From Paraburkholderia aromaticivorans (GTDB lineage: Bacteria; Pseudomonadota; Gammaproteobacteria; Burkholderiales; Burkholderiaceae), in contig NZ_CP051516.1 of assembly GCF_012689525.1 (NCBI RefSeq), forward strand, positions 310,001-374,000: a stretch of DNA of 64,000 nucleotides, written 5' to 3'. This document shows, piece by piece, positions 2,265-19,014 of the stretch. The first letter of the stretch is position 1, and each line of letters starts with the position of its first letter. The translations under genes were made by a program, and so were the position numbers. Under the pieces are notes generated by a model. The model saw only the letters and a list, made by a program, of their open reading frames with translations, was not told where the DNA came from and did no database searches.

Positions 2265-2332
2265 CGTTAGTCGATTCGTTGACTTGTATGTCGATGGCGC
2301 TTGCCACCTCGTCGCGATATAACGTGGAAGCA

Positions 2333-2689: not shown

Positions 2690-2730
2690 ATGCTCTGCGT
2701 GTTGTTGTATAGGGTCGAAAAGTTAGCGTG

Positions 2731-3270
2731 TTACATCCCGCAAATCAATTGGGCATTGCGAATCGGCTGGTCGAGCATCTGAGCATCCGATTCATAGATG
2801 GGTGACATGCTGGGATCGTTCTCCGGATCAGCAGCGTTGCTGCGTCGAAGCATGTTCAGGCGCGTCTGGATACCGTCGCTAAGGTGATCGGTGAGTCTGG
2901 CTAACTGAACAAGGCTCGCATTGCAACCCGGATATTGCTGCTCCGGTAGACCACCACTGTCGGAAAGATCGGCCATCTTTTTTATCTGCACGAATCGCGC
3001 AGCAAGCTCCCGACGCTCAGGGGATACATAGGATGCGCGAACTACCGAAGCACTCTCCGAGCCTGCGGAGGACTGCGAGTTTTCGCTATCGCCAGAAAAT
3101 CGCGCGGCATGAGACACGACGGCGGTCAGTATCCAACAGGTGAAAAATGGAATCAGAAGCTTGCCGCGCGTAGGAACTGTGTTGCCGACGCGTAAAGCCA
3201 ATTGCGGGCGAATAAGTAGGATGAGGAATCCGATTGCAGCGACTGCGAGCAGTTTGGCGAGGATATGCAT
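2731..3270 (-). CDS. hypothetical inner-membrane protein
   Basis: A 179-residue protein with two N-terminal hydrophobic segments (about residues 4-20 and 38-55), then a hydrophilic part rich in Ser, Arg and Asp with two cysteines (PGCNASL and the C-terminal LICGM). This suggests a membrane-anchored protein with a periplasmic tail. I do not recognise the family. It shares strand and close spacing with the LprI-like gene downstream. Confidence 0.6.
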   Translation of the reverse strand: MHILAKLLAVAAIGFLILLIRPQLALRVGNTVPTRGKLLIPFFTCWILTAVVSHAARFSGDSENSQSSAGSESASVVRASYVSPERRELAARFVQIKKMADLSDSGGLPEQQYPGCNASLVQLARLTDHLSDGIQTRLNMLRRSNAADPENDPSMSPIYESDAQMLDQPIRNAQLICGM

Positions 3271-3356
3271 GATGGAGGTTGCTCTACATTTCGTTCGCGC
3301 TATCCATCGGACAGCGCGAAAATTTTCATTAGTGATCGATCAGGTGCATTTGTCTG

Positions 3357-4592: not shown

Positions 4593-4780
4593 TTTTGTTC
4601 TCGTCTGAGTTGGTATTGCTTCTTCAATTACGTTGAGTTCGACGCACGATGCCTCGATGGCTACGTAGCCAAACTCAACGGCCAAACGCGCCGCCACGTC
4701 ATTGTCGAGGCAACGCACATTCGGAGCGCGGGCGCATCTCTGTACGCCCGGTCATTCAATACGTCAGGCACGGTTCGCGC

Positions 4781-5119
4781 TCAGAGCTGGACGAGCTGAT
4801 AGACGATGGCCTGCACTTCCGGATCGTTCTTCCGAAGCAGGGACGCAAACCGGGAAACGAGCAGGCGATTCTTTTTCGTCTCAATGCGATTGATCTGACG
4901 GATGACCACCGGATCGAAGGCGCGCCCCGGCTTCAGGTCTTCGATTGCCGACTTCGCGAGCGCCGTGCGTTCCGCGTCCAGTTCCTGCAATGCAGCGCGG
5001 AATTTCTCCGGCGCATCGGTTGCGGGCGTCTTGCGGACGGGCTTCGTGGTTGCAACTGCCGGTGCTTCGGCAGCGGTCATAGGGGCAGCCGAGGTCTTCG
5101 CTTCCGGTTTCGTGCTCAT
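4781..5119 (-). CDS. hypothetical Ala/Lys-rich protein
   Basis: A 112-residue protein starting MSTKPEAK at 5119, chosen because GGAGAAA lies 3 bases upstream of this ATG; an ATG 8 codons earlier has no such site. The first 40 residues are low complexity (Ala, Pro, Thr, Lys), followed by a helical region with LQELDAERTALAKSAIEDL and INRIETKKNRLLVSRFASLL. It may bind nucleic acid or another protein; I do not recognise it. It is divergent from the XRE regulator gene. Confidence 0.6.
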   Translation of the reverse strand: MSTKPEAKTSAAPMTAAEAPAVATTKPVRKTPATDAPEKFRAALQELDAERTALAKSAIEDLKPGRAFDPVVIRQINRIETKKNRLLVSRFASLLRKNDPEVQAIVYQLVQL

Positions 5120-5314
5120 AGCTTTCTCCAAATAGTTCGTCAAATCGACAGTTAAATACTATCCAGAGTTTTCGCTTTCGTACATATTTTTTGTCGAAAA
5201 ATCAAAACGTTAGGACTATTCTCGCTGTTCCCTGAACTTATCCCATCGCCTCGCTCGTCCTGCATCAGGGCCAACATCCACTGTTTACGGCATTTTTTTG
5301 GAAAAGTTAACATG

Positions 5315-5333
5315 AAATGCAACTGTTGCATTT
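5315..5333. promoter_or_regulatory. 19-bp palindromic operator upstream of the XRE gene
   Basis: AAATGCAACTGTTGCATTT: perfect 8-bp arms around a 3-base centre, about 72 bases upstream of the XRE regulator start in the divergent intergenic region. Its size and symmetry fit an XRE-dimer operator. TTGACG follows directly (5332-5337) and could be a -35 box, although the matching -10 is poor. Confidence 0.5.
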
Positions 5334-5404
5334 GACGTCATTTCATTGTTGGTCGCTACAGGCAACACTCGGCGTCATTCGATGACGTGATATGAGGGAT
5401 TGCC

Positions 5405-5764
5405 TTGAGCGAGGCGACGCACAAAGAGCAAGGCAGGCGGATCACTGAAGAGGTGGGCAAACGCTTGGCCGAATACAGAAAAAAGGCCGGATTGAGTCAA
5501 GCTCAGTTAGGCGAAATGCTTGGTCTCGAAAAGGAGAGCGTGTCCAGAATCGAAAGCGGGAAAATTGCGCCTTCTCTGTCTCGTTTGGCGATGTTCTGCG
5601 AGTCGTTGAACGTGTCGTTCGAGGAGCTACTAACCCAAGTCTCTCCACATCCCACGGATGAGGCGAGGACGCTCATTGCTTCGCTGCAAGATCTTTCACC
5701 GCGTCAGCGTGACATCGTGCTTCGAACTGCCCACAACTTGGCAGCGCTGCTGCGGCAAGAGTGA
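5405..5764 (+). CDS. XRE-family transcriptional regulator
   Basis: A 119-residue protein with a helix-turn-helix domain at about residues 15-70 (AEYRKKAGLSQAQLGEMLGL, EKESVSRIESGK). The C-terminal 50 residues (LQDLSPRQRDIVLRTAHNLAALL) are probably for dimerisation. The start is a TTG at 5405 preceded by GAGGGA. It lacks the DUF2384 (ParS/MbcA) C-terminal domain of antitoxins known to pair with RES toxins. It precedes the RES gene by 170 bases, so it may control it, but pairing as toxin and antitoxin is unproven. A palindrome at 5315-5333 is the likely operator. Confidence 0.85.
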   Translation: MSEATHKEQGRRITEEVGKRLAEYRKKAGLSQAQLGEMLGLEKESVSRIESGKIAPSLSRLAMFCESLNVSFEELLTQVSPHPTDEARTLIASLQDLSPRQRDIVLRTAHNLAALLRQE

Positions 5765-5933
5765 AACGCTGTCGTAAATAACCGGCGCGGCCGAAAAGTA
5801 GATGACGTTACGCTGCGGTTGAGTTGCTGACTTGCAGGAGCGGCAGGACTACGATCGAGTATTTGGTCAGAAGCAAGGATGCGAACATGCCCTGATCTAA
5901 AGCCCATTCTTCAATTGGGGAGCTCCAGCGATC

Positions 5934-6713
5934 ATGCCGAAGCAGTTCAAATCGTGGCGCGATTTCTACGCGTTCTCCAGATCGGTGAGGCATTCATCCC
6001 GCTTCGTTCATGATCGGAAGGTCATGTCCTTTCTCAACACGCTGCTTGAAACAAGCGAAGAGCGCCATCGACTTGTCAGTGCGGGAAAATATGTCTGGTG
6101 TGCGCAATTAGGCTGTTCATCACGGGAGCGTGAGCAGGATGGAGCTACGTGGGATGAGCCCGCTCCGTATCCCGCTGTCCGCATGAAACCACTGTCGCAT
6201 GCTGCTCACGAAGGCAGAGTGAATCCGAAGGGCATTCCATGTCTGTACGTGGCATCGAACAAAGAAACCGCTATGTCAGAGGTTCGGCCATGGGTCGGAG
6301 GTAGCATATCGGTTGGCCAGTTTCGCACGATGCGAGAACTCCGCTTGATTGACTTCTCGGTCGGCCACGATAGTAATTTCAACTTCTTCTTCGGAGAGCC
6401 TTCACCGGAAAAGCGCGAGAAGGCCATCTGGGCCGAAATCGACAGAGCATTTTCGGCACCGGTTGTCTCCGACCCATCCACTGCCGAATACGTGCCGACC
6501 CAAGTCATATCAGAGTTCTTTCGAATGCGCGGGTTCGACGGTGTGGTGTACAAAAGTCAACTTGGACCCGGTTTCAATCTCGCGCTGTTCGATCTCAACG
6601 CTGCAAACTTGACATACTGTGCGTTGCATACCGTAAGGTCAGTCACATTCATGTTTGGAGACGCCGAGGATGCTTACCATGTCAAAAGTGACTCCGGCAC
6701 TGATCAGTCATGA
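5934..6713 (+). CDS. RES-domain protein
   Basis: A 259-residue protein. After an unassigned N-terminal part of about 90 residues, a RES domain is visible: GRVNPKGIPCLYVASNKETAMSEVRPW (R95, Y105, E116) and later VYKSQLGPGFNLALFD (S208). RES toxins degrade or transfer ADP-ribose from NAD+; these residues match the conserved R, E and S that give the family its name. The long N-terminal part is unlike the compact ParT/MbcT toxins. The stop codon overlaps the ATG of the next frame (ATGA at 6710-6713), suggesting coupled translation with the broken HNH gene that follows. Confidence 0.75.
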   Translation: MPKQFKSWRDFYAFSRSVRHSSRFVHDRKVMSFLNTLLETSEERHRLVSAGKYVWCAQLGCSSREREQDGATWDEPAPYPAVRMKPLSHAAHEGRVNPKGIPCLYVASNKETAMSEVRPWVGGSISVGQFRTMRELRLIDFSVGHDSNFNFFFGEPSPEKREKAIWAEIDRAFSAPVVSDPSTAEYVPTQVISEFFRMRGFDGVVYKSQLGPGFNLALFDLNAANLTYCALHTVRSVTFMFGDAEDAYHVKSDSGTDQS

Positions 6714-6898
6714 GTGAGACTCGTCAAACTTTGGGTACTGAACGATTTAAGCGACCCACGACCGAAACATCGGCGCGGCGCGCGGCAACCATGTGTGCGA
6801 ATCCGGATTGCATGGCGCTGACCAGTGGGCCTGCCGACATTGAAACAGCGGCTATCAACGTTGGCGAAGCTTGTTTGGATGGTCATCCCCTCCATTGA
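6710..6898 (+). pseudogene. N-terminal fragment of an HNH-type nuclease-like protein
   Basis: A 62-residue frame starting in an ATGA overlap with the RES gene. Residues 22-48 (ARRAATMCANPDC.ALTSGP....AINVGEA) match the N-terminal zinc-binding region of HNH-like proteins found in bacterial conflict loci (pattern RAA..CsNPdC...TsGP...a.ni.GeAaHI). The match stops right after INVGEA, where the next residues should be AHI; here the frame reads CLDGHPLH and stops. The rest of the nuclease is missing from the following 300 bases. Confidence 0.5.
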
Positions 6899-7211
6899 GT
6901 CGAGATCCCGTCTAGCCATTTCGATTACAAGTACTTTCTTCGACTCATCAAGAAGAGAACAAGACACGAGTTAAATCTTTGCAACATTGTCTCAGCCCAC
7001 CTAGATTTAGAAGTCACGTACAAACGTGTGGAATTGCCAGTACTTGTCTGCAAAGGCTCAAGGCTCCCGCCATGAGGGTTAAATGATGTCCCGCCTTGAA
7101 TGGGCTTCGTTGAAGCAACGCCCTTTTATGCAAATTCGAAACTGACGAGCAAGAAAAATCCGGTGCGGCCGGTCGTTCAAGTTTATCGATGGTCAAATCG
7201 CTGGAGATATC
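6899..7211. other. intergenic, no gene found
   Basis: About 310 bases after the broken HNH gene. Short frames here have no binding sites or recognisable content. A weak GGGC...GCCC hairpin followed by TTTT is present near 7099-7128. I see nothing else. Confidence 0.4.
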
Positions 7212-7886
7212 GTGATCGCACTGCTTCGTGTGCTTGAAATAGGCGTTGTGCGTTTCGCGACGATACTAAACATTCTTGTGGTTGGGTTACTTGCGATCGG
7301 CACGGATGATTCCAACGCAGGTGACGTCACCATGACCATGCATGTCGATCGATCCACTGGCGGCAACGGCGTCGAATGGTGCACCAATCCTAGCCACGAT
7401 GGTTCGAAACTGTATAGAAAATTGGAGCCCGTACGCAAGAATCCCCGGTGCACGCCCTATCAGTCCGATCTTTGCTCGTTCCTTGCACCGCTCGTCACCA
7501 GCGATAAACCTGACCACATCTGTTACACGAGCTATTGTTATAACAAAAAGGAAGACATTTGCTCGGTTGACTGGGAGATAACGCTCTCGGAAGTGACCAA
7601 CGAAAAGGGAGCGCCACCTACCCCGAAGACCCAAACGATCTTCGTAGACAATGGCAACTACGCGAACCAACGGATTTGCGCCGATCCGCCACCAACCGCG
7701 AACGCTCGTGTGGTCTATCGAAACGTGCAATGGGCAAACACCCGCCCTGGCCGGGAATTCGCCTACGGAAGTTCACGTGTTCCTGATGCAGACGGTCGAC
7801 CATGTTTCGTAGCGAGATGCACTGCCTCGACTGCGGGCGACGCCTGCAGCGGTCAGTTCTCACTTACGGTCGATGTGTATCCATAG
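7212..7886 (+). CDS. secreted Cys-rich hypothetical protein
   Basis: A 224-residue protein starting at a GTG at 7212, 7 bases after GGAG. Residues 12-36 are a hydrophobic export signal. The mature part has ten cysteines in pairs (RCTPYQSDLC, HICYTSYCYN, PCFVARC), fitting disulfide bonds in the periplasm or outside the cell. No family is recognised. It stands alone on the + strand between an empty stretch and a convergent pair, and is one of several small secreted Cys-containing proteins in the island. Confidence 0.65.
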   Translation: MIALLRVLEIGVVRFATILNILVVGLLAIGTDDSNAGDVTMTMHVDRSTGGNGVEWCTNPSHDGSKLYRKLEPVRKNPRCTPYQSDLCSFLAPLVTSDKPDHICYTSYCYNKKEDICSVDWEITLSEVTNEKGAPPTPKTQTIFVDNGNYANQRICADPPPTANARVVYRNVQWANTRPGREFAYGSSRVPDADGRPCFVARCTASTAGDACSGQFSLTVDVYP

Positions 7887-8050
7887 TCGAAAGCGTGATA
7901 AATGGCCGGGGAAGGATTGGCGCGTTGCCGTCTTTGTTCACGTCTCGGCGATAGCCTGACGACGACCACGGAAGTTGCGAGATGCCGTGACAGATTTCGA
8001 ACTGCTGCATCTCGCCGATCTTATAATTCGTGCACACGATGGCAGTTCGG

Positions 8051-9025
8051 CTAATTCGCAGTCGATGAGCGTGGTGCGATCAATCTAACCAACGTAAATG
8101 CCGTTCGCGCAGTTCGTCCGCGCTCCCTTATCTCCCGAACCTTGACGAGTACGCGCCAATCCGTGCGCGAAATTTCGCGAGGATTGATGGGTGGTTGACC
8201 TAGTTCCGCCTCCCCAGCAAGTTGACGCAGAACATCCCGACTAACCGATCCGCTCAGTGTGATAGCGTCCCCATCTTTCGAAGTGTGAAGCTCGAATCGC
8301 TTCGAGTCTGGCAGCAAGAAAAGTGCGCCTTGAAACTCCTGCCCGCTTTCATCAATTTCGATCGCCTCTGTGCGCGTCCTCGCTCGGTTGACTGCCGTTC
8401 GATCAAGGAGAACGTCACGTTCGTCCTCAACTAATCGAACCGTCGCCTGACTGTCGTCGAGTCGTTTGAAGAACTTGCGCAAGGACAGCAGAATTCGCCC
8501 GTCCAAAGCCTCCGTCGCGCTTTGAAACTCTGCCTCGTTCGCAGACGAGATCTGCCCTAAGAGTTCGGCAACTTCGTCAACCACATCTTTGAGAACCGTA
8601 TCGATTATCGCGGCATCGTCCCCCGCTTCCTCAAGTACGAAACCAAACGATCCGCGTGCCACATCAGTGACGATAAGCTGCGCGTTCCCCTTCAACGGCA
8701 CGCGTCCACGCTCGCTGAGCGCACCCAACTCCCGAGTCGCCAAGCATTTGCGAATAAGTTCCTGCACGTCATCTAGCGCGCCACCGGCGAAGTCAGCATT
8801 GATACCACGGGATCCTTGTACAGGTTCCCCACCAAAGAAAATCGCAATCGAAGCATGAGGATTAAAAGACGCCCGAGTCTCTTCCAACTGCCGCTCCAGT
8901 TCCGCCTTCCTCATCCTGAATTGGTAAACACCGGTGGGATCGTCCCGAAACGACCGGGAACCCAAGAGTGCGTTCACAGAAGAAAGATCCGCTGCAAGCG
9001 CGTCAATTTTCAGTTTTTTTAGCAT
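8051..9025 (-). CDS. hypothetical protein paired with a DUF6932 protein
   Basis: A 324-residue soluble protein. The N terminus is helical (residues 1-55, likely coiled coil). It then has ASIAIFFGGEPVQGSRGI.ADFAGGALDDVQ and VARGSFGFVLEEAGD, blocks I have seen in uncharacterised proteins lying next to DUF6932 genes. No catalytic motif can be assigned. It follows the DUF6932 gene by 8 bases on the same strand, so the two are almost certainly one operon. A conflict or toxin-antitoxin role is inference from gene pairing and island setting. Confidence 0.65.
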   Translation of the reverse strand: MLKKLKIDALAADLSSVNALLGSRSFRDDPTGVYQFRMRKAELERQLEETRASFNPHASIAIFFGGEPVQGSRGINADFAGGALDDVQELIRKCLATRELGALSERGRVPLKGNAQLIVTDVARGSFGFVLEEAGDDAAIIDTVLKDVVDEVAELLGQISSANEAEFQSATEALDGRILLSLRKFFKRLDDSQATVRLVEDERDVLLDRTAVNRARTRTEAIEIDESGQEFQGALFLLPDSKRFELHTSKDGDAITLSGSVSRDVLRQLAGEAELGQPPINPREISRTDWRVLVKVREIRERGRTARTAFTLVRLIAPRSSTAN

Positions 9026-9033
9026 TGCTTCTC

Positions 9034-9588
9034 CTATCCCAAAAGAACCAACGCGTCATCGTCGTTAGACTCGAGCCTAACCCATACCATTCCCTTCCAA
9101 AGGAAGGTTTCCCTTTGGTGCGAGAACAGGCCGTACCAGTAGCGCACATCGTCGACGAGATAGTGAGCGGGCTTTTGCATATCGATGAAGAACGCCTCGC
9201 AATGAAGACGGGCTTTCAACCCCCAAGGATTGAACAGCGATTCGTTTTTTTCGAACCATTCATAGAATGCGTCACCCTCTTGCAAATGCTCGGGTCGATA
9301 AGCGTATGTAACGACGTCGATATCACTGGGCGGCCGCCCCCTCGTCTTTTCAACGTCTTCACAAAAGCTACCGTCCAGCCACTGGAAGCCGTGCACGAAT
9401 CCTGCCGCTCTCAGTTCGGAACGATACGCCAACAGACCGCGGAGGATCTTTCGGCGCTCTTCCGATGCTCCGAATCGAAACACCACCTCCGCCATGCTGG
9501 CGTAGTAGGGAGATCCGGTAGCGCGATCGGTTGGCGATTCCCCCGCGAAGGGCGGCAAAACAAGCGATGCATTGAATCCAGGTAGCAC
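9034..9588 (-). CDS. DUF6932 family protein, nucleotidyltransferase-like
   Basis: A 184-residue protein beginning MLPGFNASLVLPPF. Residues 68-95 contain LDGSFCEDVEKTRGRPPSDIDVVTY: a GS...D-I-D pattern as in the minimal nucleotidyltransferase active site, with the two Asp residues expected to bind metal. A third acidic residue may lie in LHCEAFFID. Members of this family are of unknown substrate. It is the first gene of a two-gene operon with the protein at 8051-9025. Confidence 0.7.
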   Translation of the reverse strand: MLPGFNASLVLPPFAGESPTDRATGSPYYASMAEVVFRFGASEERRKILRGLLAYRSELRAAGFVHGFQWLDGSFCEDVEKTRGRPPSDIDVVTYAYRPEHLQEGDAFYEWFEKNESLFNPWGLKARLHCEAFFIDMQKPAHYLVDDVRYWYGLFSHQRETFLWKGMVWVRLESNDDDALVLLG

Positions 9589-10307
9589 GAATGTACCCCG
9601 TCTCTCTGATATCTGTTGTTCGCTGTCCGCTGATGCCGAGAGCTCGGCGCTTGGACGCGGCTCGCGAATTTTATCCGTGGAGTCGATGTTGGTCTAACGA
9701 AATGACCGAAAATTGCACGGATGCCCCCCGCGATTGAACAGTCGGATGCAACACGTTCACAAAGACCAAATAAATCCGACTGGGGGTCCGATTGGGGGAT
9801 TGGCAGCGGGCTGGTGAAAAATGGCAGCTAGGAGGCAGTGAAATCCGATTTTTCGGGTTTAAATGGCCCCAAGGTAAGAATATTCGAGCCGCCAAAGCCT
9901 GAGTGTTGGCGCTGGACTGGTGCCGCAGAGTGTTCGAACGATGACTGGTGATGCTTTGAGCGTTTGTTGGCGGCACCGATCGAACGATGCGGACAAGCTT
10001 TCTTATTGATGCGGTTCATTAAGTGCGAATGGGATCACAACTGGGATTGGATGTGAACCGGATCTTCGCGTGCCCATTCAACGTTGACGAGTTTGCAGGC
10101 GCGTAAGTCATCGCCCTATCGCGAAGACTTTCGACCTTGTCTCCACCTCGAGACGGGTTGTTTTCGCTTCTACCGCATGGTTTTTCTTCATCAGTCGCAC
10201 ATACTTTAAGAGGCCCGGAAGAGGCAGGTCTCTTTGCCTCCAACGACATCACGGCCGATTGCGCCGTAGCGACAGGGTCAGTGTCGAGTCTTTAACAGGA
10301 GGCTGAA
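9589..10307. other. gene-free stretch holding the first intercassette element
   Basis: About 720 bases between two divergent genes. It contains two copies of TGGGGG 12 bases apart (9781-9798) beside AATCCGA repeats, then the first copy of the repeated element at 9841-9945. Small minus-strand frames at 9671-9976 and 10019-10252 have no binding site and are low-complexity; I do not call them. Confidence 0.5.
9841..9945 (+). repeat. intercassette element copy 1
   Basis: Core 9856-9879 (GGTTTAAATGGCCCCAAGGT) followed by a CGCCAA...TTGGCG hairpin and by GTTCGAACGATG at 9932-9943. The distance from core start to TTCGAA is 77 bases, within 2 bases of the other copies. It separates the DUF6932 pair from the small secreted protein at 10308. 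Confidence 0.7.
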
Positions 10308-10649
10308 ATGAAGTTATCAATTCTTGCGTGCGTACTAGTTGTATCAGCTTTTTCAACGCTACTGTTTGCCGAAGACGTCCATCGATTCCAAGGCGCAGAC
10401 CTTAGGATACCGATTGGGCATCCCAACGCTATACCGCTCGACATGTGCTACCAACCCGGCGAGTGCGACGACATTGGACGCAAACATGCCGCCGACACTT
10501 ATTGCCAAATTCAACACTTCTCCAAATCCGTACCGCCGTTGCTGGTTATAAGGGCCGATAGCCCTACTCGCTTTATCGGTGCGGTACCGCAGGCCGACTG
10601 TCCGAATCAAGGCTGCAATACCTTCCAGTTCATCGATTGCAGTAATTGA
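10308..10649 (+). CDS. small secreted six-cysteine protein
   Basis: A 113-residue protein with a strong binding site (AGGAGG, 7 bases before the ATG). Residues 1-21 are a signal peptide ending LFA. The mature protein of about 92 residues has six cysteines (MCYQPGEC, TYC, DCPNQGC, IDC), enough for three disulfides, and no membrane segment. Family not recognised. It is the only gene between element copies 1 and 2, i.e. a one-gene cassette of about 0.8 kb. Confidence 0.65.
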   Translation: MKLSILACVLVVSAFSTLLFAEDVHRFQGADLRIPIGHPNAIPLDMCYQPGECDDIGRKHAADTYCQIQHFSKSVPPLLVIRADSPTRFIGAVPQADCPNQGCNTFQFIDCSN

Positions 10650-10680
10650 GGTGCATTGGACGGACCGCGAGGAACTGTAG

Positions 10681-10852
10681 AAAGGTCGGATTTAATTGGA
10701 TAGAAATTAACGTGATCGGTCCGCCAAAATTCGTGTTTTGGCGGATCGTCTGCACCCAACGGTGTGTTCGAACAGCGTCCTGTAACGTATCGAGCGCTAC
10801 CGCGTGTTAGGAATAGAAGTCAGTACTCGGAAATGTATGGGCGCGACAGCTG
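10681..10852 (+). repeat. intercassette element copy 2
   Basis: Core at 10688-10712 (GGATTTAATTGG...ATTAACG), then CCGCCAAAA ttcgtg TTTTGGCGG (a perfect 9-bp hairpin), TTCGAA at 10767 (79 bases from the core start) and CGAGCG...GTTAGGAATAGA. The right part up to about 10852 is homologous to copy 3. The bases ACGTGAT just after the core also occur in comM at the island junction. Confidence 0.75.
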
Positions 10853-10967
10853 CGGGGGCGGCCCTCGACCCGTAACGGTCGTTGCGAGCTCTGAAGGAGC
10901 GATGACAGCTTTCGAACCGCACCGGCCGCACCGACTTCGATCCAGGCAAACGCCAGCGATACTATCG

Positions 10968-12311
10968 TCAGCCAATGGTCTTGGCTCCAACGTTTTTCGC
11001 GCGGAAACGAATCGGATATTCGCTGGAACCATCGGCCGAGCTATATCCGCAATCGTAGTCTGACTTGTAGATAGTTCCATACTTCATATATGCCTTTGCG
11101 CGGCATCCACTGCCACATTGACCGAGCGCGTTGGAACATGTGCCGCATCCGCCAATGTCCCGCAACTTTATGTTTCTCATCGCGACGAAACAATCTGCGT
11201 TCTGCCATTCATGCTGCAAGCTTGTTTTCCAAACAGATTCCGAGCGGAACGCTGTTTCCGTAAAAAGCGAACACGGGGCGAGTGATCCGTCAGCGGACAA
11301 GGCTGCATTCACGGTCGCGGCAGCACAAAGCATAAGTTGATTGGGATTGTCGGTATATTCGTACGGTTTTTCGTAACTCCAAGTATAACCGGCACCTATC
11401 CGAACGGATGGGATGCGTGAGGAAAGCTCGCTTCTCACTTCGTCGAAAAGCGGGACGTATTTCTGCACTTCTCTGTGCGAGAGAAATTGCTCCTGCGAAT
11501 TCATAGCGCGACCGCTGTAAAACGGAAATCGAACTGTCCATGTATGTCCGCCCAGTTCTGCAACGAGATACCCCAGCTCCTTAACAGCGTCAATCGTACG
11601 GCGTGTCAGAACGGATTGAACAACTACCTGCACGCCTCGCTCACTTAAGAGGCGGATCGCGCTCGTAGTCTTCACGAAGGCTCCTGGATACCCCCTGAAC
11701 AGATCGAATTCTTCGGCAGTATTGGTGTCAAGGCTTACATTCACGAAATCAAACAGTTCTGCGATCTTATCCGCGTTTCCTTCATTAATCAGCGTGCCGT
11801 TTGTTCCTAGAACGAGTTTGTATGAGATAGGTCTGCACTGCTCCGCAATCGTCCAGAAGTCTTTACGCATCATCGGCTCGCCGCCTGTGATTGTTAGGGA
11901 GCGCAGTTGAACGTTCTCTAACTCTTTCAACGTCGTCGAAATTTGCTCAGACGTGGGATGCGGCCCCGTATTGTCTGAATTGTTGTAGCAATGAACACAT
12001 CGCTCATTGCAGCGACGAGTCACTTCCCAATATAAATCGAGCGGATACGAAAGCGTTGGGAAGCTTTTTAGCCTCCCTTTATTTGATTTGAATAAGTGGA
12101 AATTCCCTTCCGTAGAAACGATCGTCTTTAATGCATCGTAACTGGCTCCATCGACGGTAGTCTGTTGGAATGCGGTTTCGTCGCCGTTCGATAATCCTGC
12201 CAATTGCAGAAAGGCGTTAGCACCATCGTGATCGAGAAGTAAAACATCCTCCCCGTCGCCCTTCGCGACGACCGCGCCAAACTGCTCCGGACGATACAGA
12301 AGTGCGCACAT
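10968..12311 (-). CDS. radical SAM/SPASM peptide maturase
   Basis: A 447-residue enzyme expected to modify the peptide encoded 5 bases upstream. Residues 1-75 begin RPEQFGAVV...VLLLD, like the PqqD-type peptide-recognition region fused to many such maturases. The radical SAM core has C101, C105 and C108 (CNERCVHC) for the catalytic 4Fe-4S cluster and GGEP at 143-146. The C-terminal SPASM region has C329, C347, C389, C392, C399, C403 and C421, the count expected for two auxiliary clusters. The usual products are thioether, C-C or C-O crosslinks on a ribosomal peptide; which one is made here cannot be told from sequence. No protease or exporter is adjacent. Confidence 0.9.
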   Translation of the reverse strand: MCALLYRPEQFGAVVAKGDGEDVLLLDHDGANAFLQLAGLSNGDETAFQQTTVDGASYDALKTIVSTEGNFHLFKSNKGRLKSFPTLSYPLDLYWEVTRRCNERCVHCYNNSDNTGPHPTSEQISTTLKELENVQLRSLTITGGEPMMRKDFWTIAEQCRPISYKLVLGTNGTLINEGNADKIAELFDFVNVSLDTNTAEEFDLFRGYPGAFVKTTSAIRLLSERGVQVVVQSVLTRRTIDAVKELGYLVAELGGHTWTVRFPFYSGRAMNSQEQFLSHREVQKYVPLFDEVRSELSSRIPSVRIGAGYTWSYEKPYEYTDNPNQLMLCAAATVNAALSADGSLAPCSLFTETAFRSESVWKTSLQHEWQNADCFVAMRNIKLRDIGGCGTCSNALGQCGSGCRAKAYMKYGTIYKSDYDCGYSSADGSSEYPIRFRAKNVGAKTIG

Positions 12312-12316
12312 TTTTA

Positions 12317-12508
12317 TTATTTATTCTTCAAGACGAACACACCTTTATGCCCGTCTCGGGCAGACCTAGTATTGCTGACGCTCACGTCGGCGGTTTTCGC
12401 TAGGCAGCCACATCCGCAAGTGATCATTTCGAAGCTTCCATTTTTATTGGCTTCGGGCTGATGATGCTCTACGGTAAAAAAATCCTCCATCTGATCGTTC
12501 GTTTTCAT
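12317..12508 (-). CDS. putative RiPP precursor peptide with CGCGC motif
   Basis: A 63-residue peptide starting at the ATG at 12508, 5 bases after GGAGAG. An in-frame TTG at 12520 lies on that binding site, so I reject it. The first 30 residues are acidic and polar, leader-like (MKTNDQMEDFFTVEHHQPEA). Then comes CGCGC (C31, C33, C35), followed by a 28-residue polar tail rich in Ser, Thr, Lys and Asn. It ends 5 bases before the radical SAM/SPASM gene. Size, alternating Gly-Cys and gene pairing make it a precursor candidate; I do not recognise it as any named RiPP class. The three Cys are the likely crosslink donors. Confidence 0.75.
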   Translation of the reverse strand: MKTNDQMEDFFTVEHHQPEANKNGSFEMITCGCGCLAKTADVSVSNTRSARDGHKGVFVLKNK

Positions 12509-12977
12509 TTGACTCTCCAATATTATGCATGCACTCCATGCTTTCGATTTGAAAACACCGGAGACTGAGTAACGCTGAACGGCGGCAGATCACGAAGTAA
12601 GAGGCAGGCCAACTACAAGCTAACGCATCTTTATTAGCGACCTACGAACGTGCAGTTTGGGGCAATGCATCATGTATAGGTGCCTGAAACCTACTTTGCA
12701 AGCTAATTTAGAATTGTTGGAGGGGCAATCTATGTTTCCGATCGTTCGCGCTTCGTCCGAGCGGCGCGAATGCGAAGTGAACCGGCCTATGTCAGTGGAA
12801 ACGGCAAGCTCCAACGCACTCGTTCAATCTTGGACAAATTTGATCTTGTCCGTTCTATGGCGCACACAGCAACGCAAAAATTGTCCCTGTTAAAAGTAGA
12901 TTCTGTCGCATATGCTAGGACGAGCACTACTTCTTAAGCCCCGCCCTGATCTCCGCACATCAAATTAGAGGCAGCCA
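12509..12977. other. divergent intergenic region
   Basis: About 470 bases between the precursor gene (minus) and the TCAD1 gene (plus). It must carry promoters for both. Apart from the possible small frame at 12732-12893 I see no clear feature; CATAAT near 12523 is a weak -10 candidate for the precursor gene. Confidence 0.35.
12732..12893 (+). CDS. possible 53-residue small protein
   Basis: The ATG at 12732 is preceded by GGAGGGG at a spacing of 7 bases, a better binding site than most genes here have. The 53-residue product starts MFPIVRASSERRECE and ends QRKNCPC, with a mildly hydrophobic stretch (WTNLILSVLW). Nothing identifies it, and it may be chance. It lies upstream of the TCAD1-protease pair on the same strand. 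Confidence 0.3.
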   Translation: MFPIVRASSERRECEVNRPMSVETASSNALVQSWTNLILSVLWRTQQRKNCPC

Positions 12978-13274
12978 ATGCGTTCAGAAGCAGTGGAAGT
13001 GACACTCCAGAGCGGACGCAACATCCTCATCGAGGTGTCGGTGCAGGGTGAAGAGCCCGTTTCCAACGCCAGTCAGACTTTCAGTGATTTCGGAGAATCG
13101 CTGACTGAACTCGCCAAATCGATTAGTTCGGCCATAGAGGCAATCAAGCCAGATTCCGCTGAAGTGGAATTTGGTGTTGAGGCCGCACTTGAATCGGGAA
13201 AACTAACCACGTTCCTCGTGAAAGGCTCCGGCTCAGCGAACGTAAAGGTAACCCTGCGTTGGGGAAAATCTTGA
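12978..13274 (+). CDS. TCAD1 (trypsin-co-occurring, CU044_2847-like) protein
   Basis: A 98-residue single-domain protein. The end AEVEFGVEAALESGKLTTFL.KGSGSANVKVTLRW matches the trypsin-co-occurring domain family, whose members have the pattern vEVEFGvkl..eaG.viak.g.eanfkVtL.W. In the published analyses of NTP-dependent conflict systems this domain sits beside trypsin-like proteases and effector-associated domains and is thought to be an adaptor. Here its stop codon overlaps the protease start (TTGA), so the two are translated together. Confidence 0.8.
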   Translation: MRSEAVEVTLQSGRNILIEVSVQGEEPVSNASQTFSDFGESLTELAKSISSAIEAIKPDSAEVEFGVEAALESGKLTTFLVKGSGSANVKVTLRWGKS

Positions 13275-14464
13275 CGAATCGGCCGGTTCTCACCCGCGAG
13301 TTTGAGAAGCTGTTTCACAGCTGCACTCTACGAATATACTCGGGAGGAACGGTTCGAGGAACGGCGTTCTTTATAGCGAAAAATATCGCCGTTACATGCG
13401 CACACGTGATCAAGGATCTTCACGCGTCGGAAATCGATGTGCAATGGTCCGACCAGAAATTGAAGGCATCAATCATTGACGGAGTCGACTTCGGAAACCG
13501 AGATCTCGCTCTTCTATCGATCAAACAACTTAATGGATCTCACGCCTGCGTGAGAATCAGTTCAAATACCTGCGCTGGTGACTATTGCTACGCCTTCGGT
13601 TACAGTGACCTTCGTACCGACGGAGATCCGGTAACGCTCGAAATAGAGGGCAATCTCTTGAGCGATGTAAAGCTTAAGGGTGGCCAAGTACGGCCCGGGC
13701 TAAGTGGCAGTCCGATTCTCAATCTTAGAACGGGCTACGTTTGCGGTGTGCTACGAACAACTCGTGATAGAGCCATCGACATCGGCGGCATCGCAGTCGG
13801 ATTACAGGACACCGAAGTCTTGAAGCGTAACAAGAGATCTAGGGTTGGGGCGAGTCTATGGGAACGACGTCGCAATGAATGTCTCGCCGGCCTGGATGGA
13901 ACCAAAGGGCGCCCGCCGACTAAAAAGGAACAACGAATTGCGGAAAAAGGCCGCCGCAATTCGTGGCGGTGGTGGATTTATGGTCTATGGGGTAGCCGCA
14001 AAGAAACCCCAATTGCGTCGGTTGGTTACTTTCGTCTTTTCACACTGAATAAGAACACGGGAATCGTCTCAGATGGCCGCGTATTTCGCGTTGATCAAGC
14101 CACGTGGCGAATTATCGAAGCAAGAGGCCAATGGGCATCGAATCCATTCCTCTTGGAGCCGGAACGAATGACCATCTGTTACACGCTCAAGCGACGTCAT
14201 CTGGAAAATCCTGACCCGCTGGCTCCTCCTCCGGAGCATCGTAGTGTTATGGAACTGACGCGACAATTAAAGACCCCACTTGTAGGAGATGAATGCTGGG
14301 AAGGACCGTTCGATGATCTCGGACGGCATCGCAGAGATGTCTCCGGCTACATCCTTGCAGAGCGTCTACCGCTTGAGGTTATGGAGCCAGACTCGGCGTA
14401 CGCGCTGGTGGAAGAAAACGGCGGCAGGTTTATCCAGATACTTCAAAAATCGATGTCGACCTAG
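13271..14464 (+). CDS. trypsin-like serine protease with unknown C-terminal domain
   Basis: About 397 residues. I prefer the TTG at 13271, which overlaps the TCAD1 stop and follows GGGGAAAA; a TTG at 13259 is the alternative. Residues 15-190 form a trypsin-fold protease: catalytic H45 (VTCAHV), D78 (NRDLALLSI) and S145 (GLSGSP) are all present. A basic linker of about 30 residues follows, then a C-terminal domain of about 170 residues (YFRLFTLNKNTGIV... to IQILQKS) that I do not recognise. No export signal, so it should act in the cytoplasm, probably as the effector of the TCAD1 pair. No NTPase sensor lies beside it, unlike the larger described systems. Confidence 0.8.
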   Translation: MTNRPVLTREFEKLFHSCTLRIYSGGTVRGTAFFIAKNIAVTCAHVIKDLHASEIDVQWSDQKLKASIIDGVDFGNRDLALLSIKQLNGSHACVRISSNTCAGDYCYAFGYSDLRTDGDPVTLEIEGNLLSDVKLKGGQVRPGLSGSPILNLRTGYVCGVLRTTRDRAIDIGGIAVGLQDTEVLKRNKRSRVGASLWERRRNECLAGLDGTKGRPPTKKEQRIAEKGRRNSWRWWIYGLWGSRKETPIASVGYFRLFTLNKNTGIVSDGRVFRVDQATWRIIEARGQWASNPFLLEPERMTICYTLKRRHLENPDPLAPPPEHRSVMELTRQLKTPLVGDECWEGPFDDLGRHRRDVSGYILAERLPLEVMEPDSAYALVEENGGRFIQILQKSMST

Positions 14465-14479
14465 CTAATTAGATGCCAA

Positions 14480-14690
14480 GCATGAGCGACCACGGCGAAT
14501 GCAGGCGACGCTAGACCGCTTAAAAATGGGTTTAATTGGCCATAAGTTAAGCACATTTGGCCCGCCAAAACCCGCGTTTTGGCGCTGTATCGGTCCAACA
14601 GTGCGTTCGAACGGCGTCCGGTTGATGTCCCGAGCGTTTATGCGCGTTACGAATAGAGGCCGCACCCATATGTCTCGGGCGCAACTGCTG
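14480..14690 (+). repeat. intercassette element copy 3
   Basis: Left part CATGAGCGACC and GAATGCAGGCGACGCTAG (14481-14513), core 14529-14552 (GGTTTAATTGGCCATAAGTT), hairpin CGCCAAAA cccgcg TTTTGGCG, TTCGAA at 14606 (77 bases from the core start), then CGAGCGTTTATGCGCGTTACGAATAGA-like sequence shared with copy 2. The stretch 14465-14936 holds no gene apart from this element. Confidence 0.8.
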
Positions 14691-14936
14691 CTAGGCAGAT
14701 TTTGACCCCTTGCTGTCGTTCGGATCGCCGTCCCGCGAAACGCCGTTATCAACTGGTCAACGGTCATTTCCTAATCGGGCATGTCCACACGCAGGTTTCC
14801 GCGCCAGGCCGCTTGGGCGGTAAGTCCTCTCCGGGATCGATGCAGATTCGAAGCGCGTCGTCGACCGTACGAAGAATTTTTCTTGACCGGCCGGTGGCGC
14901 ATGCTTTACTTATTCGGACAGTCGGAGGAGGGGAAG

Positions 14937-15197
14937 ATGAGATTTGTCGCCGTCTTACTTTGTCTGCTCGGGTTGTGCGTCATGATGGGCACTCAGTCCA
15001 TCGCGCAGGATAACGGCGATAGCCACGAAAGCGAGATGATTGCCCGGAAAAAAACTAAAAAATCTCACCACAAGAAGAGTGCGGAGTCCGCAACAGCCGC
15101 CTCGGCTTTAGATATTGGGGGATCGAAGCGTCGAGGAGGCGTTCCTAAAGAATGCTGCAGCAAGCCGGGCGATGAGCCCGACGGGGATCACAAATGA
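14937..15197 (+). CDS. small secreted basic protein
   Basis: An 86-residue protein. The ATG at 14937 sits 4 bases after GGAGGAGGGG, so the longer frame from 14781 is rejected. Residues 1-24 are a signal peptide ending SIAQ. The mature part is very basic in the middle (RKKTKKSHHKKS) and ends with KECCSKPGDEPDGDHK. I do not recognise it. The stop overlaps the start of the next gene (ATGA), so the two are one unit, possibly an exported peptide with a membrane partner. Confidence 0.6.
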   Translation: MRFVAVLLCLLGLCVMMGTQSIAQDNGDSHESEMIARKKTKKSHHKKSAESATAASALDIGGSKRRGGVPKECCSKPGDEPDGDHK

Positions 15198-15832
15198 TCT
15201 GGCGGAGATCGCGGCAGATCGCCGACCGCAAGGCGTCGACGGAAGAGGAACGCAAACAACAGGAAAAGGCGGATCACGAGAGGCGGCTAAAACTCTTTGA
15301 CGACTTGCAAGCGGACATTGATAAGCGCGATCTCGCCACTTCGGACGGATTTGATAAATCAATCTTGACGTACGCATCCGGGGGCTTGGGCTTTTCACTC
15401 TTGCTCTATAAGGATGTTCTGCCACATTCGACGCTTGGCATACCCGTCGCATTGCAACTGTCATGGATGCTATTCACGCTTGCAATACTAGCGATCGTGC
15501 TTTCCTACTTGATCACCCCGAAGCTGCTCAGTGATCAATTGGACTTAGGGGAAAGGTGGCTCGTGGACTGCGACAAATCGGCAGACAGGCCCAGCAAATG
15601 GGAGCCTGTCGTCACATATACTGCGTACGCGGCCGGCGCGTTCTTCGTTGCAGCCATCGCGTTGACTGTGTATGTAGCCATTTCGGGCAGTGCCCATTTG
15701 CCGGTTGGCAGCGCCGCTACGTCTGTGGCATGTGCGCCGCCAACGGATCAACGCGCATTATCGACCCAACGTGGATCTGCCTCGGATCACGCAAATAAGA
15801 ACGAGCCTGCGCCGCTTCGCAATGGTCACTGA
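15194..15832 (+). CDS. membrane protein with N-terminal coiled coil
   Basis: A 212-residue protein whose ATG overlaps the stop of the preceding secreted peptide gene. Residues 10-50 are charged and helical (EEERKQQEKADHERRLKLFDDL). Three hydrophobic segments follow, at about 62-78, 84-108 and 140-165, and the C-terminal 45 residues are polar. Family not recognised. Together with the secreted basic peptide it forms a two-gene cassette between element copies 3 and 4; immunity to or anchoring of that peptide is a guess. Confidence 0.6.
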   Translation: MIWRRSRQIADRKASTEEERKQQEKADHERRLKLFDDLQADIDKRDLATSDGFDKSILTYASGGLGFSLLLYKDVLPHSTLGIPVALQLSWMLFTLAILAIVLSYLITPKLLSDQLDLGERWLVDCDKSADRPSKWEPVVTYTAYAAGAFFVAAIALTVYVAISGSAHLPVGSAATSVACAPPTDQRALSTQRGSASDHANKNEPAPLRNGH

Positions 15833-16070
15833 GCGGACGCCTATTCATCGGGGTTTGGATTCCGACTGCATCTCTGACCGTCAAGCGGTCTTCTCTACCT
15901 TGGGAGCATGAACGAAGACGCTATTGGCGGAATGGCCGCGAAGCCGTGGACCTTCTGAACCGCAGAAGCTTCACCTGCCAAAGCGCGATTTCGTTTCGTC
16001 AGGTAACAGCCTGATGCGAACAAATGTCTGATCGCAGTCATGTGGCGGTCTTATACAGAGGCCACCACTT
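15833..16070. other. intergenic, no gene found
   Basis: The gene-free stretch runs from 15833 to 16413, mostly filled by element copy 4. In the part before the element I see only short frames without binding sites. Confidence 0.4.
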
Positions 16071-16215
16071 GGTCGTATGAACGGCCACGGGCGAATGCAG
16101 GCGAAGCTAGCCCGGTTACAAATGGGGTTTGTTTGGCCACAAGGTAAGACGTTTGGCTCGCCCAAATCGATGGCGGTGTTCGTCTTATCGATCACGCTGG
16201 CGGTTCGAACGATGT
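16071..16215 (+). repeat. intercassette element copy 4
   Basis: Hairpin GGTCGT atga ACGGCC (16071-16086), GAATGCAGGCGAAGCTAG (16093-16110), core 16126-16150 (GGTTTGTTTGGCCACAAGGT, then AAGAC), and GGTTCGAACGATGTC with TTCGAA at 16204 (78 bases from the core start). The AAGGTAAGACGT at the core end is identical to the island/comM junction. Confidence 0.8.
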
Positions 16216-16413
16216 CCCACCTCTTTCTGTCCGCAATGGATACACGGCAGTGTTCGAATGCATTCGTTCCGAACTTGTACGGCAGATATCGACCGTGAAC
16301 GGACGTTAGATTTCCTCGACAGCAGACATTCACATGTCCTGCGCCTAGTCGCGGATACGTCGTCCGTGACGGGGCCGCGCAACTCTGCGTCGCTATCGAT
16401 AAATAGCGAGAGG

Positions 16414-17106
16414 TTACTGGCGTGGCTCGCCAGGTAGACGCTCAGGTTCCGTCATTTCCACCGTGGAGACGGTTCCGCGCGCAGTTACGACCTTGAAAAC
16501 GCTATCTGCATAGCTAATCGGGATTCTGTAGGTCCAGGCATCAAGACCGCTCGCCATTGGTTCAAGGTCGTTGCCCATTACGTCGGTTCGCTCTTGGCGC
16601 AACTGCTGCATGAGTTCGCTGACCTTTAAGGCTTTGGGCTTTTGTTCACCACCCTGTGCAGTCAGTAGCTTCCAGACCAACGGGGCAACCTTTTCGCTAA
16701 TCATCGTGGGCGCGCGCACGATGATAGTTCGCGCCTCGCCCCCGTCAAGCATGATCGGCAGGGCGAGGCGTTGGCCGTCTACGGTTTCCAGGATATCGAA
16801 CTTGCCGCCGACGAAGGTGGGCTTACCCTGCACAGTGTTAAATAAGTCCTGATTCACAATAGAGAGACGGTCCTCGCTCTGATTCGCAATCGTGACTTTC
16901 CAGCACAGACCCACTATTCCTACTTTTGGACCGCCGCTATATTGCACGGCACACTCACCGGTCGGGATGGCTGTCATCGTGACTGCTTCGCGTTTTGCCT
17001 CGTTAGCCTGCCATGAAAAGAACGCGGACGCGCTACCGACAATTAACGCGAGCGAAGCGACGATTGAGTTGATCCATTCGTGTAGGTTCGTATTTTTTGG
17101 TGCCAT
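16414..17106 (-). CDS. hypothetical membrane-anchored protein
   Basis: A 230-residue protein with one N-terminal membrane segment (residues 12-32, SIVASLALIVGSASAFFSW) and a large following domain with beta-rich blocks (GLCWKVTIANQSEDRLSIVNQD, LALPIMLDGGEARTIIVRAP). The layout suggests a single-pass protein with its bulk outside the membrane. Family not recognised. It is the only gene between element copies 4 and 5. Confidence 0.6.
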   Translation of the reverse strand: MAPKNTNLHEWINSIVASLALIVGSASAFFSWQANEAKREAVTMTAIPTGECAVQYSGGPKVGIVGLCWKVTIANQSEDRLSIVNQDLFNTVQGKPTFVGGKFDILETVDGQRLALPIMLDGGEARTIIVRAPTMISEKVAPLVWKLLTAQGGEQKPKALKVSELMQQLRQERTDVMGNDLEPMASGLDAWTYRIPISYADSVFKVVTARGTVSTVEMTEPERLPGEPRQ

Positions 17107-17259
17107 TTGTATAGACGGCGGATGTGAAACGGACTTGCTAGATCGTATTGTCTACGATTGAGCCGACGTCGAAGGATCGCTTCTGGCCGAAGAACGACAG
17201 CGACCAATCGCGGGAAGGGCGAACACATCTGGGGCCTATTTGTAGTGAGGCCGTCAGTC

Positions 17260-17405
17260 GGTCGCATGAGCGACCATGAGCAAACAGACGCGAGGCTAGT
17301 CGCTACTAGCGGGGTTTAATTGGCTACAAGTCAACATGTTCGGCGCACCGAAACCGATGGCGGCGTTCGTCGCATCGATCCCACCGGCGGCTCGAACGAT
17401 GTCTC
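17260..17405 (+). repeat. intercassette element copy 5
   Basis: Hairpin GGTCGC atga GCGACC (17260-17275; the sixth stem pair is G-C in place of T-A of copy 4, a compensatory pair), CGAGGCTAG, core 17312-17336 (GGTTTAATTGGCTACAAGTC), CACCGAAACCGATGGCGG, and CTCGAACGATGTC (79 bases from the core start). The gene-free stretch 17107-17528 holds only this element as far as I can see. Confidence 0.8.
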
Positions 17406-17528
17406 AGCCGCTCTGAGTTCGTTATGAACGGGCGGCGCGTTCGAAACTGGTTCGACTCGAATCGGTGCGGCAGACCCGACACGACTCCAGTCATCCAGTT
17501 AGCTAGGCCGGTGACGGCTGCTTCCGAA

Positions 17529-18092
17529 TTACGACCGACGCTCGTCCTCGACAATACCGTCTGACAACGTAATGCTATCAGGCACAACAGGAAGCGTATT
17601 CGGCCGCACACTATTTCCGATAGCGGCGAGCACTTCGTCCATAGACAGCTTCTTCGGCCGCGTGCCATCGGGATAGACGCGCTGGTAGATTGCTTGATTC
17701 TGTTGCGTCTTGCCAGCGAAGATGATTTTCCACTCTTGCGTGCCCTTACCGCACGTGTGGATAACATTTTCGACTGCCTTACGATAGCGCTTACCGATCA
17801 TCTTCCGATCATTGGCTTCGACGCTTTCCCACTTGCCCAGGCCAGCCTCCCAAAAGATGTCTTGGACTTGGAATTCGTCTTGCGCCATTCCAATACCAGT
17901 GAAAGTGCGCTGCGCCATTTTCTCAACATAGGCGTTGATTTTGATGTCGCGTTGCTCGGAATCCTCCTCGGTTTCCAGATCACGTTCAATTAGACGCACG
18001 ATATATTCCTCGAACGTCTTCTTGTCGGTCAGGGCTTTGTCGAGACCCTCCCGCATCAACAACTCAGGTATTTGAACCGTCACTGCGACCAT
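17529..18092 (-). CDS. hypothetical protein, last cassette gene before comM
   Basis: A 187-residue soluble protein starting MVAVTVQIPELLMREGL at 18092, with GGAG 9 bases upstream; the longer frame to 18149 would start inside the promoter. The N-terminal 50 residues (ALTDKKTFEEYIVRLIERDLE) look like a small helical oligomerisation unit. The middle (FQVQDIFWEAGLGKWESVEANDRKMIGKRYRKAVE...WKIIFAGKTQQNQAIYQRV) resembles, weakly, small single-copy DUF1413/DUF3653-like proteins, but I cannot assign a family. It has its own sigma-70 promoter. Confidence 0.6.
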   Translation of the reverse strand: MVAVTVQIPELLMREGLDKALTDKKTFEEYIVRLIERDLETEEDSEQRDIKINAYVEKMAQRTFTGIGMAQDEFQVQDIFWEAGLGKWESVEANDRKMIGKRYRKAVENVIHTCGKGTQEWKIIFAGKTQQNQAIYQRVYPDGTRPKKLSMDEVLAAIGNSVRPNTLPVVPDSITLSDGIVEDERRS

Positions 18093-18121
18093 CTCTGCTC
18101 TCCGTCGAAAGGATGAGTTCA

Positions 18122-18150
18122 TCATAATACGGTCGCCAGTTGTTATCAAT
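18122..18150 (-). promoter_or_regulatory. sigma-70 promoter of the last cassette gene
   Basis: On the minus strand: TTGATA (18145-18150), 17-base spacer, TATGAT (18122-18127). The start codon at 18092 is about 30 bases from the -10 box. This shows that the cassette gene carries its own promoter. Confidence 0.7.
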
Positions 18151-18201
18151 AGCTATCGAATTGTTTGGTTTTCTTTATAAAACAATAAAATGCGTGCTTA
18201 G

Positions 18202-18284
18202 GCAAGAAGTTCGCAGCGCTTCCTAGTTACGCTGCACCGCGACTTCTTGCTGGATGGGCGGGTTTAATTGGCCATAAGGTAAGA
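18202..18284 (+). repeat. island end: long hairpin and intercassette core at the comM junction (copy 6)
   Basis: A two-step hairpin at 18202-18250 (GCAAGAAGT/ACTTCTTGC outer arms, GCAGCG/CGCTGC inner arms) is followed by the core GGTTTAATTGGCCATAAGGT (18261-18280) and AAGAC. From about 18284 the sequence is comM (ACGTGATGGCCGCC). The right part present in the other copies (hairpin plus TTCGAA) is absent and replaced by comM, as expected at an integration boundary. Confidence 0.8.
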
Positions 18285-19014
18285 CGTGATGGCCGCCGGC
18301 CGCGGCAACTTCGAGTGCGCGGCGCGCGCCGCGTTGACCGATGACGTCGCCCATATCCGGGACCACAGCCGCTGGGCTTTCGGCGATGTCCGGCACGGCG
18401 ACTGGATAAAGCCGGGCGTCCGGCGCTTCCGCGAGGTGAGCGCACAACGAAGGCAGATCAGCGGCGCCGTAAACATCGACGCCGGGTACGAGCGCCGCTT
18501 CCGCCGCGCTCGCAGCGGGCAGGTAGAGCTGAGGCGTGGAGTGCGCGCGTGCTTCGCATGCGGCAAGGTCGCTTGCAATCGCGGCGGATTGCGGCGCACC
18601 GCCGCCATGAACCACAGCGCTGCGCGCCGTTCCGCACGCCATGGCGAAAGCGCCGCGCATTGGCCTGAGCGCGCCGGTCAACGAGAGTTCGCCCGCGAAT
18701 TCACGATGCAGCAAGGACTCGGCGGGAATCTGGCCGCTCGCCGCGAGAATGCCCAAAGCGATTGGCAGATCGAAGCGGCCGGATTCCTTTGGCAGATCGG
18801 CCGGCGCGAGATTGACGGTGATGCGTCGGACGGGGAAGTCGAAATTGCAGTTCTGCAGCGCCGCGCGCACGCGCTCGCGGCTTTCGCGCACTTCCAGATC
18901 AGGCAGGCCGACGATCGAAAAAGAGGGTAATCCGTTCGCGAGGTGGACCTCGACGGTTACTTCGGGCGCGCGGCCAGAGGCCGGCGCGCGACTGCGCACC
19001 ACGGCAAGCGACAT
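18223..19014 (-). pseudogene. comM: comM, 5' part only, cut by the island
   Basis: About 245 residues of ComM/YifB from MSLAVVRSRA at 19014: the N-terminal ChlI/Lon-like domain (GLPSFSIVGLPDLEVRESRERVRAAL, INLAPADLPKESGRFDLPIALGIL) is intact. The match ends at AAAGGHHVL, directly before the Walker A loop; 18 island-coded residues and a stop follow. ComM is a hexameric AAA+ helicase that moves branches during natural transformation; without its ATPase domain this product cannot work. The 3' half is not in the window and is presumably on the far side of the island. Confidence 0.9.

Follow-up and report, generated by a model that had tools for sequence, protein, structure and literature searches.

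The stretch of Paraburkholderia aromaticivorans DNA analysed here (the window, 64,000 nucleotides, C3:310001-374000 of the 10.8-Mb genome G000) carries the 5′ half of comM, bordered by a row of small gene units with one repeated site between them. The two comM halves are separated by a 34.3-kb insert, in which an element encoding a large serine recombinase (LSR) comes first and five cassettes follow (Table 1). Six copies of the site core, all on the + strand, lie between 9855 and 18260. Four are recovered at up to 3 mismatches, against none in 100 dinucleotide shuffles, and the other two are too diverged for this pattern. The six same-orientation sites announced by the original prediction are thus real, although some of its starts mark a longer element rather than the core. 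TTCGAA (CTCGAA once) does follow the GGTTT start in all five full copies, but at 77-78 bases instead of 77-79.

The prediction had found no recombinase in the window and had proposed to look for one at the other comM half. Among the scanned island proteins of the window there is indeed none, and an intact LSR gene is present at the place indicated (C3:294131-295966), directly inside the comM 3′ half. Its frame of 611 amino acids, free of internal stops, contains Resolvase, Recombinase and zinc-ribbon domains and, near the N-terminus, a Y-x-R-x-S motif (YIRFS); no relative of solved structure was found by sequence at 1e-3. This LSR is the only serine recombinase among the scanned island proteins, in a scan run without a Ccr profile. 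The gene occupies one end of a 25.9-kb unit (C3:294025-319878) whose left end, like the gene itself, lies left of the window, and which reads as the first unit of the array. In two other genomes, G389 and G260, the first unit is likewise an LSR element (26.7 and 28.4 kb) with a common backbone; it is followed by five cassettes in G000, three in G389 and none in G260. The G000 element also encodes GmrSD_N and AAA proteins with defence-model matches. Three motifs related to each other, GGGCCAAATAAACCC, GGGCTAATTAGACCC and one that resembles P in inverted form, lie between comM and the LSR gene (L011:2020-2110) and may be additional sites for binding of the LSR or for its autoregulation.

Table 1. 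Features of the comM array in G000 (window positions, except where the contig C3 is named)
Feature	Position	Strand	Remarks
comM 3′ half	C3:293482-294024	-	Outside the window, 34.3 kb leftward
Right-hand part of LSR element	1..9878	.	Element with LSR gene; backbone common to two other LSR elements
LSR-element P arm	9855..9876	+	With AG 9877-9878 and P′ arm to about 9950, P-P′ junction no. 1
Cassette 1, 0.83 kb	9877..10710	.	Secreted six-Cys protein 10308-10649 (+)
P arm no. 2	10688..10708	+	Most diverged; AA 10709-10710, then P′ arm; no dyad in symmetry test
Cassette 2, 3.84 kb	10709..14551	.	Genes of the next four rows
Radical-SAM protein	10968-12311	-	Cassette 2; SPASM-type models, all below their cut-offs
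CGCGC peptide, 67 aa	12317-12520	-	Cassette 2
Trypco1 protein	12978-13274	+	Cassette 2
Trypsin-like protease	13259-14464	+	Cassette 2
P arm no. 3	14528..14549	+	AG 14550-14551, then P′ arm with dyad AAAACCC
Cassette 3, 1.60 kb	14550..16147	.	Open reading frames 14781-15197 (+) and 15194-15832 (+)
P arm no. 4	16125..16145	+	AA 16146-16147, then P′ arm
Cassette 4, 1.19 kb	16146..17334	.	Putative membrane-anchored protein 16414-17106 (-)
P arm no. 5	17312..17332	+	AA 17333-17334, then P′ arm
Cassette 5, 0.95 kb	17333..18282	.	Protein without assigned family 17529-18149 (-); DUF1413 below cut-off
P arm at right junction (P-B′)	18260..18280	+	AA 18281-18282 common to comM
comM 5′ half	18283..19014	-	244 codons up to GGHHV

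The borders of these units are exact. We compared 28 junctions from eight genomes (6 left, 14 internal and 8 right), and every one has the same orientation with respect to comM. Left junctions join comM to an arm that we call P′ (in G413, ..CGACCAGCAA of comM followed by GATGTTCGGCGC), internal ones consist of a P arm (GGGTTTAATTGGCC..), AA or AG and a P′ arm, and right ones of P, AA or AG and comM. Each full copy of the repeated element is thus best described as a P-P′ junction. The sixth copy, which was taken for a partial one, does run with its left arm into comM, yet it is not a damaged copy but the half-site expected of an insertion. comM is broken at a leucine codon just 5′ of Walker A (GGHHV|LLVGPPG). 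When its flanks are joined at the dinucleotide, an uninterrupted, in-frame GGHH..GPPG comM is restored in all six genomes where both junctions are readable, and the rejoined flanks align without gaps to two intact relatives.

Beyond the dinucleotide the arms have little in common with comM: of 20 positions, 4-6 match it in P (measured in three genomes) and 6-10 in P′ (four genomes). In G000, G389 and G260, the bases common to cassette and comM are limited to 2-3 bp (AA or AG). The crossover, first attributed to the core itself, falls just after it, in the AA(G) at its 3′ end. P and P′ form imperfect inverted repeats centred on the dinucleotide in 8 of 14 internal sites (shuffle p<=0.025; site classes were assigned by eye) and in both predicted LSR-element circles (p<=0.006). 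From sequence alone, the features by which LSR islands are recognised, a very short crossover, unrelated attP and attB and a dyad in attP, are all found here. A shared overlap of 2-3 bp indicates a serine integrase.

The LSR elements also encode a conserved XerC/FimB-like tyrosine recombinase of 197 amino acids (L011:14822-15415, +) with a full Phage_integrase domain, located in a block 80-81% identical at the DNA level among the three elements. One could suppose that this protein, or an integron-type enzyme, performs the reaction. Tyrosine enzymes usually need an overlap of 6-8 bp, however, whereas the cassettes have 2-3 bp in common with comM in the three genomes named above and about 5 in G413 and G420. 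The protein scores 49 with the integron-integrase model for a cut-off of 265, and, being the sole tyrosine recombinase among the scanned island proteins, leaves no integron integrase there. Moreover, in G202, a genome of another genus, a 38%-identical LSR lies in comM beside the 5′ half, in a 6.9-kb island devoid of a repeat array, and the junctions share AG at the same comM codon position, as judged by eye. The LSR family is therefore tied to comM independently of cassettes, and we regard a tyrosine recombinase as a very improbable agent.

We then examined how far the site is linked to comM, using one genome per species in a genus sample of 144 genomes and a family sample of 398. At up to 3 mismatches, the core occurs in 8 of the 144 genus genomes (18 matches, each on a contig carrying a comM half) and in 3 of the 398 family genomes, all of the same genus. 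A 252-bp element query gave 11 matches in six of the genus genomes, all at the same comM loci. A pattern scan of named genomes matched only Paraburkholderia, in six stretches from four species: P. elongata (G413), P. solitsugae (G440), P. haematera (G389) and P. lycopersici (G260). A scattered REP-like intergenic repeat, the case that would have spoken against the original prediction, is thereby rejected, since all 18 core and all 11 element matches are at comM. A phage or plasmid origin was rejected as well: the 252-bp element is matched by none of 50,697 phage records and none of 72,556 plasmid records, and viral contigs yielded neither an exact pattern match nor an LSR relative. The same holds for an RNA element, because a search of 9700-18400 gave nothing from Rfam at E<=0.1 and 1-20500 contains no tRNA or tmRNA. 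TTCGAA (up to one mismatch) lies at 77-79 in 11 of the 14 internal sites, so that it is common but not universal in the P′ end.

In all eight core-carrying genomes the comM 5′ half, which is present in 140 of the 144 genus genomes, ends at the same leucine codon. As a control we took 19 further genomes with a short comM frame or a partial match, three of them with an LSR near comM. Fourteen were unbroken through the junction codon (one up to a contig end 18 residues beyond), G450 was broken a few bases away from it, G427, G189 and G219 had losses around it, and the G201 stretch did not reach it; the short-frame genomes G242 and G471 were outside the set. Among the genomes examined, the exact-codon split thus goes with the core (8 of 8, against 0 of 14). 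In the family sample the LSR was found at 85-87% identity in two genomes besides G000, P. haematera and P. lycopersici, where it occupies the same place and comM is split at the same position; the other genomes among the 24 with an LSR match at 1e-30 reach at most 42%. The LSR heads the array in three of the eight genomes.

Other interruptions of comM were encountered. In G450 (L145), which lacks the core, different DNA (..TTTAATGTAACCGAC) breaks the gene a few bases away from the cassette site. LSRs 35-42% identical to that of G000 are found further 5′ in comM in G355 (L153), G379 (L152), G283 (L166) and G144 (L168/L169), around query residues 40-50, which appears to be a separate target within comM for this family of LSRs. 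No spaced set of at least three copies was seen beside the LSRs in the G355, G144, G202 and G283 stretches; two-copy repeats occur in G144 (649 and 60 bp), G283 (57 bp) and G355 (short). G121 (C6:314197-333318; L172, L174) contains eight 54-bp palindromic sites of the form GGGAACAACAC .. TATAG .. GTGTTGTTCCC, with altered arms in one, spaced by 0.8-9 kb and apparently in both orientations. An LSR with 37-38% identity to that of G000 lies at a distance of about 10 kb, and the palindromes look like a further array of sites. A second comM break point, in the Walker-B region (LFLDEL), was noted in eight genomes (G379, G467, G364, G442, G020, G369, G429 and G405; L152, L136, L138, L139, L140, L142, L143 and L144). 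The inserts of G369, G429 and G405 carry, near their end, repeated TTGTCA/TGACA-like motifs, which we take to resemble Tn7-like ends, and G403, G481 and G219 display small frame-breaking changes at this spot, possibly excision scars.

The arrays of the eight species differ in cargo, so the intervals between sites are not conserved together, again as the original prediction implied. Those of G420 and G413, in which no LSR was detected, could be read end to end and are short, with two cassettes each over 6.3 and 4.3 kb. In spite of this variable cargo, 13 of 20 units (whole or cut) share one or both ends, over 70-150 bp, with another unit of different content. One cassette of P. haematera and one of P. 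solitsugae, for example, are 99% identical over 126 bp and 98% over 145 bp at their ends, around unlike interiors, and both ends of cassette 4 are 85-88% identical to those of a P. haematera cassette with unrelated cargo; at 1e-4, the ends of cassette 1 match no other unit. Furthermore, one cassette is common to P. elongata and P. solitsugae (98% over the right 893 bp) and is directly seen in two positions: it adjoins the comM 3′ half and precedes another cassette in the former, and is the last one before comM in the latter.

Such ends, up to about 150 bp at 70-99% identity between cassettes with unrelated cargo, could also serve homologous recombination. The units would then have been placed once by a site-specific event, present variation would come from exchange after DNA uptake through the shared ends and comM flanks, and the LSR would move no cassettes, in line with its going undetected in five of eight arrays. 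Homologous exchange alone, however, makes no joints like those observed, because at the outer junctions P and comM have nearly nothing in common beyond the dinucleotide, and the two copies of the shared cassette diverge within two bases of it. We consider this explanation rather unlikely.

As for cargo, cassette 1 codes for a secreted protein of 113 amino acids with six Cys after the signal, as had been predicted. The genes of cassette 2 (10968-14464) constitute a candidate peptide-modification or defence module. In cassette 3, a start further inside the first reading frame would give a secreted peptide, and the second one probably specifies a membrane protein. Cassette families of other genomes include PIN-like, SEC-C/DUF1186, DUF6398, DUF4148, helix-turn-helix with S24 peptidase-like, and two DUF4062 proteins. 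No family was assigned to 13 of 20 chosen cassette proteins from these genomes, and some cassette proteins look like parts of defence or peptide-modification modules.

None of these 20 proteins, chosen outside the truncated G440 unit and the stretch of G447, nor of the nine cassette proteins of the window, contains a recombinase domain. This bears on another scenario, in which complete LSR elements entered comM in succession and each decayed by deletion to a stub, leaving the internal sites as scars, so that small mobile cassettes never existed. Tandem accretion is known for other islands, according to PMC3146451, and cassettes and LSR elements hardly differ in their P arms. Yet no cassette left end matches that of the LSR element, the right ends share 24-28 bp only, and the same small cassette is present in two species, all of which, together with the lack of recombinase domains, makes decay of full elements an improbable origin.

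Taken together, these data make it likely that a comM-specific serine integrase collects small, non-autonomous cassettes at comM. comM would be the attB of the LSR. The LSR element and each cassette would have P′ as the left end and P as the right end, so that a circularised unit would carry attP (P-AA/AG-P′). Recombination at the leucine codon before Walker A would produce comM-B|P′...P|B′-comM, and later units would join on the same 2-bp crossover to create internal P1|P2′ junctions. The cassettes would be moved by the G000 LSR, or by a closely related one that acts in trans or has since disappeared. Arrays without an LSR would then relate to the complete ones as CALINs do to integrons, their cassettes having been left behind or acquired separately from the LSR element. 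The structure thus supports site-specific addition of cassettes at comM, as originally proposed, while ‘one after another’ is deduced from the tandem layout.

Several observations weigh against this model. A textbook serine integrase joins attP with attB, and the internal P-P′ junctions are not products of that reaction. For tandem joining, we suppose either that attR accepts attP, or that attR1 recombines with attL2 between two occupied comM copies, an excision-type reaction that would give P1-P2′ directly. The P′ arms of cassettes differ from that of the LSR element. No LSR relative was detected at 1e-10 in five of the eight array genomes (G413, G420, G440, G447 and G451), G420 having a 144-residue fragment of one elsewhere. 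Contig ends truncate the arrays of G440 and G451, and in G447 all that is left of the comM 3′ half is its last 18 residues; in these incomplete arrays the LSR could be absent through assembly or deletion. The roughly five common bases in G413 and G420 include chance matches, and these two genomes alone do not fix a 2-bp crossover. The dyad is weak or missing in six of the 14 internal sites (p ~0.06 in two, p>0.1 in four), and, by eye, an AG crossover suits the left junction of the LSR element in G000 and G389 only if it is shifted by one base from where it lies in G260. Finally, excision, circles or transfer of cassettes were not observed, and we infer their movement from sequence comparisons.

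A more extended version, to which we give somewhat less than even weight, would make the array a serine-integrase counterpart of the integron. comM would be the platform and the LSR element the head of the array. The array would gain, lose and shuffle small cassettes from a pool in which the ends are standard and cargo is exchanged freely, and it would grow by excision-type attR x attL recombination between two occupied comM copies, each internal junction being a regenerated attP. As comM works in natural transformation, its occupation would in addition hinder removal of the array by that route.

Cassette-by-cassette gene collection is a hallmark of integrons and their tyrosine enzyme. In integrons and CALINs, small cassettes are lined up with their individual recombination sites in one orientation, and some arrays have no integrase. 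The Paraburkholderia arrays resemble them in their small cassettes, their one-orientation sites and the occurrence of arrays without a detected LSR. They differ by insertion inside comM, a short overlap, mixed gene orientation and the lack of an integron integrase among scanned proteins. As for attC-like single-strand folding, one of six sites folds clearly better than shuffles (z below -2), and no consistent fold was seen in this comparison. If the model is true, cassette collection would have been solved a second time, by a serine integrase working with cassettes of 1-4 kb. Since most scanned cassette proteins lack a family and some resemble defence or peptide-modification proteins, the core can be used directly to search for new functions. 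These natural sites also provide a compact, testable LSR, a candidate for stacking inserts at one locus.

SCC/ECC elements and the Dehalococcoides ssrA islands are the closest functional parallels. SCC/ECC elements (CcrAB at rlmH), as presented in PMC6222049, have in common with the comM array a large serine recombinase, one conserved target gene, variable cargo and dyad-symmetric att sites, and many ECC elements have extra att sites. While ECC elements measure 21-78 kb, the Paraburkholderia units are of 0.8-3.8 kb, many with shared 70-150-bp ends, have P-P′ internal junctions, and disrupt their target, comM. The Dehalococcoides ssrA islands (DsiB), as described in PMC3146451, consist of tandem units at one gene with site repeats between them, the serine-recombinase module being present in 16 and absent in 15. 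These islands repeat the target-gene end, whereas the Paraburkholderia internal junctions contain no comM sequence; the cassettes here are also smaller, are without the six-gene integration module and target comM, not ssrA. Other comM elements, of Aggregatibacter, Acinetobacter and others, use the same target but are single elements with another integrase, and the part of PMC4774983 that treats them describes no cassette array at comM. No paper on such arrays was among the matches listed in the open full-text literature, a scope outside which bioRxiv and most subscription papers lie. By analogy, our best reading is that the comM array would work like SCC or the Dehalococcoides ssrA islands, but with cassettes of integron size.

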